A DNA stretch of 39,401 nt, taken from assembly GCA_030427595.1 (NCBI GenBank), contig JAUIBX010000008.1, forward strand, positions 1 to 39,401, in the 5' to 3' direction. Every line of letters starts with the position of its first letter. Position 1 is the stretch's first letter. The DNA comes from Bacteriovoracia bacterium (GTDB taxonomy: Bacteria > Bdellovibrionota > Bacteriovoracia > Bacteriovoracales > Bacteriovoracaceae). The notes under the pieces are model-generated. The model made no database searches. It saw nothing but the letters and a program-made list of their open reading frames with translations, and had not been told where the DNA came from. This document shows, in pieces, positions 5,871 to 16,758 of this stretch. The translations under genes were made by a program, and so were the position numbers.

Positions 5871-5873
5871 TTA
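5871..5873 (-). other. In-frame TAA joining two collinear reading frames
   Basis: This TAA ends the secreted 137-residue ORF (5871-6284) and lies in the same frame as the 619-residue membrane NTPase (3999-5858). Translated through, the protein would read GHLFF-stop-WPEFLGLLLFFLLPYF, that is, a continuous hydrophobic membrane helix. The joined frame (6284 down to 3999, 762 codons) would give signal peptide, periplasmic domain, membrane helices and cytoplasmic NTPase, a sensible topology. Whether this is a real gene boundary, a nonsense mutation, readthrough or a base error cannot be decided from sequence. Confidence 0.6.
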
Positions 5874-13720: not shown

Positions 13721-14653
13721 ATGAAACCAATTCTTTCTTTTCTTATCCTCTTCTTAATGAGTGCACCTCTCCTTGCTCAATACAAAGGCGAAGTTTCCTT
13801 TTCTCAAGAAGAGATTGACCATCATGCAAAGACAATAAAAGACCTCACTGAAACATCACGAAACTGTCTGCTTCGCTACAAGAGAGAGCATGAAGAATTC
13901 TATCAAAGAACTTGCATCAAAAATTTTTGGGGCAAGAAGAAATGCCTTTCAAAATTCTATGGAGAAAGACGCTATACCAAAGTTAAGGGTTCACGCCGCT
14001 CTGATGGAAAGAAGCTTGATTACCTCCCCCGTGAACTCGAAAAAGAAGGATTCAATCCTGAACTTGTCAATTATATGGAGGCCACAAGTTGTGTCGGCCT
14101 CGCTCTTCAATGCCTAAAAGAAGGCTTTCAATCAACAGGGCAAAAAGAACAGTGGGATCGCATTATGACCTTTGTTCGTGCCAATAATGTCGGTGGAACT
14201 GCCCTACAGGATGCTCTTCAAAAAATTGGCTGGAAAATTTATTACTGGAACCCCGTGCCCCACACCAATCTTGTTGAAGCCGCAAAGGAATGGGACAAGG
14301 AAGAGAGAAATTGGCTTTCTAAAGGCTGGCATGCTTTTCGTTATGCCAAGGTCATGAATGAAGGAACCTATTGGTTTAATGTGGTTGATGATGCCAATGA
14401 TTTGGTTGGTTTTGGTGACCAAATCCCCAATAAACTGTATGACTTCCCCTTCTGGGTAGGAACAGCAAATACGGGTTATCACGTTTTTCCAGGTACCTTT
14501 GAGAAGGTGGTTGAGGCCCATAGTACCCGCCATATCACGGCCTTTGATAACCTAGAATTCAGTGATTTCAACCCCTTCGCCGAGGGTGGTGGCCCACGCT
14601 GGACCAATTCTGAGAAATATCGCTCAGGTCTTTTTGCCCTACCTCCTCTTTAA
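13721..14653 (+). CDS. Secreted protein of unknown function, possible cysteine-hydrolase fold
   Basis: 310 residues with a signal peptide (MKPILSFLILFLMSAPLLAQ). A basic, cysteine-bearing segment (Cys49, 65, 75) precedes a domain with Cys124 in ATSCVGLALQCL and later His254 (GYHVFPG) and His267 (VVEAHST). Cys at the start of a helix with a distant His resembles NlpC/P60- or CHAP-like hydrolases, but the similarity is thin and I would not assign the family. The ATG has AGGA 6 nt ahead, within the inverted repeat described separately. The next gene is also secreted and on the same strand, 44 nt downstream. The protein most likely acts in the periplasm or outside the cell. Confidence 0.75.
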   Translation: MKPILSFLILFLMSAPLLAQYKGEVSFSQEEIDHHAKTIKDLTETSRNCLLRYKREHEEFYQRTCIKNFWGKKKCLSKFYGERRYTKVKGSRRSDGKKLDYLPRELEKEGFNPELVNYMEATSCVGLALQCLKEGFQSTGQKEQWDRIMTFVRANNVGGTALQDALQKIGWKIYYWNPVPHTNLVEAAKEWDKEERNWLSKGWHAFRYAKVMNEGTYWFNVVDDANDLVGFGDQIPNKLYDFPFWVGTANTGYHVFPGTFEKVVEAHSTRHITAFDNLEFSDFNPFAEGGGPRWTNSEKYRSGLFALPPL

Positions 14654-14697: not shown

Positions 14698-15066
14698 ATG
14701 AAAAAGACTCTTTTCTTTATTTTTGTCTTCACAATTTTTCCCTCCCTTATGGCCAACGAGGACCTTGAAAGGCTGGTGACCTTAGCTGAAGATTCACGCG
14801 ATGTCGTTGTTGAACTTGAAGACCCTCAAGACGAATTTGTCCTTGATGAAGAAACCTCTGACTTCATTTTTTCTCTTCAAGAACTTGATAAGGAAATTGC
14901 GGCCATTGTCCCAGACTCTTTAATCGATCCCAACCAAGAAAACCCAGGTCCGGGAAGTGCTATGCCTCACGATCCCTGTGCCGATCAGTATTCTATTGAT
15001 CAGGCCCTTCCCGATCGTATTCAAGGTCGTAAGTTTCAACTCTACTTCACAGCGACTTTTAGTTAA
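14698..15066 (+). CDS. Secreted N-terminal fragment, collinear with the 15124 gene
   Basis: 122 residues with a signal peptide (MKKTLFFIFVFTIFPSLMA) followed by an unusually acidic stretch (many Glu and Asp between residues 20 and 65) and a short proline-rich segment (NPGPGSAMPHDPC). It ends at TAA 15064-15066, just after a strand-like FQLYFTATFS. The frame continues past the stop without interruption into the 544-residue ORF at 15124. On its own it has no recognisable domain. It most likely is the leader and first domain of a single protein of about 686 codons rather than an independent gene. If the stop is real, the product would be a small exported acidic protein. Confidence 0.6.
   Translation: MKKTLFFIFVFTIFPSLMANEDLERLVTLAEDSRDVVVELEDPQDEFVLDEETSDFIFSLQELDKEIAAIVPDSLIDPNQENPGPGSAMPHDPCADQYSIDQALPDRIQGRKFQLYFTATFS
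15064..15066 (+). other. In-frame TAA splitting one long secreted-protein frame
   Basis: The frame opened at 14698 reads FTATFS-stop-GAELGLNPGFAGKNNY and then on through ATG 15124 to 16758. The 19 codons between the TAA and the next ATG are open and coding-like. The downstream part ends as an outer-membrane barrel but has no signal peptide of its own. This makes the TAA look like an interruption of one gene. Confidence 0.65.
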
Positions 15067-15123
15067 GGTGCTGAGCTTGGCTTAAACCCAGGCTTTGCGG
15101 GAAAAAATAATTATCGCAACTTT

Positions 15124-16758
15124 ATGTTGGGAGAAAGTCAAAGTGGTCACCCCAATGCATATCAAATTAGAACTCTTACCGGACTAGAAAATCGTTACCT
15201 CAACACGGAAAGGCCTAGTGATTGGGATGATTTGAGTCTTTTAGAAAGAGCACAACGTCTACAAAGCTTTGCCCAAAGCTATTCTGGAGCTGAGCCTAGC
15301 CTAGGACTTATTCTCAGTGAATATGCTATCGCTGATATGACCGCCAATCCTAGTGAATGGCGAAATAGCCTCAATGAAATTAAAGATCATCTGACCTTTG
15401 AAGAGAAACTTAAAGTTGCCTCCCATTTTGGAGGCCGCTTTAGTGACAACTATAATTACGATCGAGCAAATGGTGAAGGTCCTAGAGCTGGTGGCATTGT
15501 CACTATTGAAGAGATGCTTGAGAGTGTACGAGATAGTACACCTGGTGGTGTCTGTCGCGACGTCTCCCAAGCTCAAAGCCTTATGCTTCAAGAGCTTGGT
15601 GTTTCTTCGGACGATATTTACCAAGTGTCTTATAGAACAGCTTCTGGTGGCCACGTCGTACTTGCAGTTAAGGACCCTGATAATCCCAAGCGTATTGTTA
15701 AAATTAATTATGATTACACAGATGAAACCGATGACCGCACAGGTGGTGCCGCTCTCATGCAAAACTCTAGTCTGCCTGAATTTGGGATGCAGTATCGTAT
15801 TTATGATGCTGACGGAAAGCCGGTGGCCACAGTCCCCACTGAGATGGGTGAAGTCTTAAGAGATGTCACTAGAGGCAGAAGATTGAGCGATGGCATCAGT
15901 CAAAATCATAATTTGCAAAGAGTTTATATGGACACCCCCTATGGCGTTGGCTCCCTTTTTACTGGAACAACGACCTCGGGAGATAATTTAGTTGGGGTTG
16001 CTTTTAGTCGCCGCGGTGACGAGGATCAAACGATCAGCACTGACTTTGGTGTTGCTGCGGTTAAAAGAGATGGAGAAAGGGCAACAGTAACGGTTAGTGA
16101 AACTGCGCTTTATAGCTATCTTCGCCAAAATATTCGCTCACCAAGAGTAGAGGCCGGAAACTTCTCCGTAGGCGTCAATGGTGGAGTTAATAGTGAGATG
16201 ATCATCTCTGACAATACTGCAGCCTATGACTGGGGTGGTGAAAGAACGGGCACTAATTTTGATGCTCGCTTCGGTGTCTTTACTGGAGCAGACCTTCGCT
16301 TTGAATCTGATGACGGCAAAACCAGAGCAAGAAGTTCAATTGTGGCCGAAGGCTTTTTAAATCATCGAGAAGAACAAGTTGGACCAGACAGTGGCTATAT
16401 GCTGGCCTTAGACCGGGTGGAATGGACCACTACTATGGAGAGGGATATTTCTCCGGATATGGTGATCGCAGGAGAAAGTGCCATCGTCTTAAGAAATATA
16501 GGAAATACCGCTGCCTTTAGAGGACGCATTATTGATGGTGATCATAACTTTTCTGGAGAGCTCTCCTATCAAGGACCCCTAGGTGATGCCGCCGCATTTA
16601 ATCCCATGTCCGGTGAACAATTAGGTCTTGGCGTTCAAAAGACATGGGAAAGTCGTAGTGATGGTTTTTTTCAAGACCCCCACTTCAGACTCGATTATGT
16701 GAGGGACCTTGATTTTGATCGAGATGCTGTTACAGCAACGTTTGGTCTTAAGTTCTAA
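15124..16758 (+). CDS. Transglutaminase-like domain plus C-terminal beta-barrel-like region, leaderless part of a split gene
   Basis: 544 residues from the first ATG after the TAA at 15064-15066; coding probably begins further upstream at 14698. Around residues 135-200 there is a transglutaminase-like core: GGVCRDVSQAQSL with Cys144 at a helix start, GGHVVLAVKDP with His177, and acidic residues after it. The pattern GxC-helix-LG, then H, matches the papain-like transglutaminase fold. From about residue 260 on, strands with alternating polar/hydrophobic residues dominate and the protein ends VTATFGLKF, a typical barrel C-terminus with final Phe. Such a protein needs export, but this ORF lacks a signal peptide, and no clear Shine-Dalgarno precedes the ATG. 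The stop is separated by one base from the convergent gene at 16760. Domain call is moderate. Confidence 0.7.
   Translation: MLGESQSGHPNAYQIRTLTGLENRYLNTERPSDWDDLSLLERAQRLQSFAQSYSGAEPSLGLILSEYAIADMTANPSEWRNSLNEIKDHLTFEEKLKVASHFGGRFSDNYNYDRANGEGPRAGGIVTIEEMLESVRDSTPGGVCRDVSQAQSLMLQELGVSSDDIYQVSYRTASGGHVVLAVKDPDNPKRIVKINYDYTDETDDRTGGAALMQNSSLPEFGMQYRIYDADGKPVATVPTEMGEVLRDVTRGRRLSDGISQNHNLQRVYMDTPYGVGSLFTGTTTSGDNLVGVAFSRRGDEDQTISTDFGVAAVKRDGERATVTVSETALYSYLRQNIRSPRVEAGNFSVGVNGGVNSEMIISDNTAAYDWGGERTGTNFDARFGVFTGADLRFESDDGKTRARSSIVAEGFLNHREEQVGPDSGYMLALDRVEWTTTMERDISPDMVIAGESAIVLRNIGNTAAFRGRIIDGDHNFSGELSYQGPLGDAAAFNPMSGEQLGLGVQKTWESRSDGFFQDPHFRLDYVRDLDFDRDAVTATFGLKF

Follow-up and report, generated by a model that had tools for sequence, protein, structure and literature searches.

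The frame at 14698-16758 (+) is very probably one ordinary gene for an exported outer-membrane protein with a LapG-like domain, interrupted by a single, private stop of the substitution type, which would be either a wrong base or a recent nonsense mutation, with no programmed device involved. A possible recoding event is resolved, in this way, as an ordinary private stop. The window, that is, the whole stretch of DNA analysed here, is a single contig of 39401 bases from a draft genome of the family Bacteriovoracaceae/Halobacteriovoraceae (360 contigs, 3.82 Mb in total; completeness 99.8%, contamination 2.6%). The genome-wide scans cover a sample of 524 kb, equivalent to 14% of the genome.

The interrupted frame and its relatives

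The preliminary description reported a long secreted frame cut by one TAA, and this is borne out, given that the interval forms one reading frame with exactly one internal stop, at 15064-15066. The frame starts at the ATG at 14698, and the 122 residues that precede the stop open with a signal-peptide-like stretch, followed by an acidic region, as described. Inspection of the sequence also agrees that the first ATG past the stop (15124) has no Shine-Dalgarno-like sequence before it and no leader behind it. The parts of the gene are as follows:

14698-15063 (+): N-terminal part of 122 codons, with the signal-peptide-like leader, the acidic region and the first predicted beta-strand (from the frame and the relatives)
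15064-15066 (+): in-frame TAA, aligned with a sense codon in the relatives
15067-16758 (+): remainder of the gene, 563 codons and the terminal TAA, 63% identical to the copy in the related genome G001
15124-15126 (+): first ATG past the stop, with the Met kept in 7/7 aligned relatives, inside a helix

The 563 codons downstream are a real coding frame, since relatives match them at up to 63% identity. Over the same stretch, the other two forward frames contain 22 and 73 stops, and not one of 2001 sequences generated by a Markov model with matching dinucleotide composition remains open.

The relatives of the gene that carry names come from metagenome assemblies of the Bacteriovoracaceae and Halobacteriovoraceae. 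The alignment with homologues proposed in the preliminary description recovers the intact, one-piece gene, with both halves in a single intact frame, which is about 630-700 codons long in the six closest homologues, and longer in all the others. The downstream part is matched in 14 of 39 genomes, none with an internal stop, while 52 of the 129 genomes of the family match the gene, in about 70 matches, without a stop inside any of them. The comparison of the N-terminal part was limited to the closest relatives, where it is similar enough to be detected (33-66% identity), and here the N-terminal half matches in the frame of the downstream half, and ends one codon before the latter begins. The codon aligned with the TAA encodes Glu or Asp in the five closest relatives. 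Because the relatives hold uninterrupted single frames, both pieces represent one gene, and the stop at 15064-15066 is private to the assembly of the window.

The surrounding gene order is conserved in the G001 genome. Directly upstream, at 13721-14653 (+), lies a leader-bearing protein of 310 amino acids, with no Pfam match, which is a conserved neighbour of the gene in its two closest relatives as well. No second intact copy of the gene was found in the same genome, and the plasmid records searched with the gene returned no match. A contig titled uncultured Vibrio (L022) holds a homologue that shares 37% identity with the window protein; this record may carry the wrong label, or the gene may have been transferred.

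The sequence that follows the stop is conserved as in the intact relatives. Of the columns common to the four closest relatives, 169 of 182 downstream of the stop (93%, with 71-96% in the others) and 19 of 21 upstream of it are retained in the window copy, as in the intact relatives, while the length of its tip branch is 0.31 downstream and 0.33 upstream of the stop. The first and second codon positions downstream change somewhat more in the window (a ratio of 0.44 vs 0.18-0.29), but the window is the outgroup of the trio, and the ratio is no clean test. The window copy retains each of the putative catalytic residues, Cys, His and Asn, and there is no second lesion within the gene. Neither the conservation of the columns nor the branch lengths reveal any relaxation of constraint after the stop, and a very recent mutation would reveal none either. 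Since the downstream half is conserved as in the intact relatives, the stop is either young or not real.

The origin of the stop

Other interrupted frames were sought in the 524 kb sample by scanning codon usage for pairs of coding halves parted by one stop, which gave several candidates. The following cases are considered here:

Window 6284-3999 (-): protein with a leader, membrane/AAA-ATPase-like, with a TAA at 5873-5871; one frame of 761-781 codons in G004, G005 and G006
L049 14473-17634 (-): frame cut by a TAA at 15171; G003 and G006 align across the site without a break
L044 5020-5022: PAS/histidine kinase with a single TAA, likely interruption
L102 5330-5332: M4-type peptidase with a single TAA, likely interruption
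L023 4675-4677 (-), in the related genome G001: family 2 glycosyltransferase with one TAA; the halves match consecutive parts of the same Pfam family

Alignment with the relatives confirms the sites at 5871-5873 of the window and at 15171 of L049 as single-TAA interruptions, while those of L044 and L102 are likely. The frame at 6284-3999 (-) is probably the "first" interrupted frame implied by the preliminary description, which counted the present one as the second. Two further candidates were rejected, the apparent stop in L091, where the alignment merely runs into the upstream gene, and the match in L041, which is situated upstream of the start of the gene. All the interruptions are TAA, the most frequent stop here and one to which A+T-rich codons readily give rise. 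Across 124 orthologous pairs with G001 (37,462 residues), the only clear internal stop is that of the frame at 14698-16758, and there are no frameshifts. With at least one such case in G001, together with those found here, single-stop interruptions have a modest rate in these draft genomes. Internal stops without frameshifts fit either base errors or recent nonsense alleles.

There is about an even chance that the base is wrong, or derived from a minority strain, in which case the gene would be intact in the cell, and the draft assembly in error. The fragmentation of the draft genome into 360 contigs is consistent with this, as is the lack of decay downstream, and the presence, in the 14% sample, of two or more further genes with a confirmed interruption, yet no frameshifts in the 124 orthologue pairs. 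Many of the internal-stop pseudogenes in bacterial assemblies stem from base miscalls where coverage is low, and low-quality reads raise the number of internal stops, but not that of frameshifts (Cooley and Wright 2024; PMC11017572). The confirmed interruptions nevertheless sit in accessory genes, in what is a small sample, which argues against an error of this kind.

A real and recent nonsense mutation, which would make the gene a young pseudogene in this strain, is a serious contender, with a chance that falls somewhat short of even. The gene is missing from many relatives, and the genome has no second intact copy. Given that a match is found in only 52 of the 129 genomes of the family, and is missing even from the congener G005, assessed as 100% complete, the gene is dispensable. 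Nonsense alleles would also predict interruptions mostly in accessory genes, as seen here, as well as ABC-transporter genes free of stops, as seen among the matches listed, in both cases in numbers too small to exclude uniform errors. Against this, no relaxation of constraint is visible, so that a very recent origin is needed, and the gene has no second lesion. Overall, the evidence leans slightly towards a base error rather than a real mutation.

In the sequence as assembled, translation would stop after 122 residues. A working downstream protein has no apparent source, because none of the internal starts has a ribosome site or an export leader, and no functional protein would be expected from this version of the gene.

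The preliminary description offered three options, a broken gene, a wrong base, and a stop that is read through, of which the first two both stand, while readthrough has found no support. Readthrough of the stop to give a little full-length protein, whether through recoding or by means of a suppressor tRNA, is very unlikely. The intact and conserved downstream frame and the single TAAs in several genes of the same genome speak for readthrough, but termination at TAA is normal here. This codon terminates 113 of the 203 long frames in the 524 kb sample and, in the TAA-ended orthologues, 34 of 34 end no more than 10 codons from the end of the relative, which indicates that TAA is a working stop. 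None of the 32 tRNAs found has a UAA-reading anticodon, although one could be missing from a draft genome, and no relative carries a TAA at the site. The residues found in the relatives at the three best-aligned interrupted sites differ (Glu/Asp; Ala/Leu/Ile; Asn/Thr), so that the insertion of one and the same residue would suit them poorly.

A general suppressor or a changed code is rejected on the basis of the tRNAs and the gene ends at TAA, as is an RNA signal past the stop, where the RNA folds no better than shuffled sequences (z = 0.37), with no unusual structure. The more specific proposal, that UAA in envelope and accessory genes is read at a low, and perhaps regulated rate, which would keep the LapG-like outer-membrane protein scarce, has a slimmer chance still. 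The stop at 15064-15066 is not a programmed device, and readthrough should not be inferred from the present genome without reads.

The least probable reading is that of two separate genes, the second from the ATG at 15124, which draws on the fact that each piece is an open frame, but is ruled out by the single frame of all the relatives, with one codon between the halves (in place of the separate genes, each with its own start and export signal, named in the preliminary description as the counter-evidence to look for), and is further opposed by an ATG without a ribosome site or leader and a C-terminal barrel that requires export.

The intact protein and its closest known counterparts

Structures were modelled for the intact G001 copy and for the uninterrupted domain of the window. 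The features of the downstream part are as follows:

15094-15888 (+): LapG-like domain with a transglutaminase / cysteine-protease fold (model mean pLDDT 89.6; best PDB matches LapG 4u65_E and 4fgq)
15553-15555 (+): invariant Cys of the putative catalytic triad, in the motif GGVCRD (alignment)
15652-15654 (+): invariant His of the putative catalytic triad (alignment)
15706-15708 (+): candidate third residue of the triad, Asn (Asp in one relative; alignment)
15907-16755 (+): C-terminal predicted outer-membrane beta-barrel (start approximate, via alignment to the G001 model)

The transglutaminase-like domain and the barrel-like C-terminus, which were both proposed from the sequence in the preliminary description, are each supported here. 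The best PDB match of the window's own middle domain is LapG (Foldseek E 2.8e-4, probability 1.00, target-normalised TM 0.54), and the best-matching Pfam family is PF04473 (DUF553, transglutaminase-like), which is found in 16 of 25 members (best E 1.2e-7), but the window copy itself, at 16.0 bits, is under the curated cut-off of 20.5. The Pfam scans returned DUF553 and a weak Transglut_core, and not the C93 family profile, that of LapG proper. The invariant Cys and His and the nearly invariant Asn would suit an active site of the papain/transglutaminase type.

The model of the G001 copy is confident (mean pLDDT 86.3, pTM 0.81), and consists of an N-terminal helix, a short strand right before the site of the stop, a domain of helices and sheets, and a C-terminal beta-barrel, which matches the barrels of OmpG, CymA and the autotransporters. 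No autotransporter Pfam domain was found in the protein. The family is predicted, from these models, to consist of outer-membrane beta-barrel proteins with an export leader, and the best-supported view of the intact relatives is that of an exported protease or transglutaminase-like enzyme held at the outer membrane, with a putative activity and substrate.

Proteins of the family occur in the 52 genomes with up to six matches per genome. The copy at 1147-3189 of L002 is one example, with a LapG-like domain, an outer-membrane barrel and, as the candidate third residue, Asn instead of the usual Asp. This exported combination of a LapG-like domain and a barrel has no dedicated Pfam or NCBIfam model that passes the cut-off, and the collection of papers searched contains none on a transglutaminase in the Bacteriovoracaceae. 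The intact family is perhaps worth functional study, independent of the stop.

With regard to known systems, the interruption itself resembles the internal-stop pseudogenes of draft genomes (PMC11017572), which likewise have a frame that is intact but for one internal stop, full-length copies among the relatives, and a draft assembly, with no difference shown between the two. The C-terminal antiparallel beta-barrel is the feature in common with OmpG, CymA and the autotransporter translocators, but with low TM-scores and only 8-12% identity. The predicted fold and the invariant Cys and His are like those of LapG, a periplasmic bacterial transglutaminase-like cysteine protease (4fgq, 4fgo and 4u65), although the identity to the window domain across the fold match is just 14-18%. 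In LapG, the third residue of the triad is Asp, whereas the candidate is Asn in nearly all the members of the present family. LapG also lacks the N-terminal extension and the C-terminal beta-barrel, both of which are present in the family described here.
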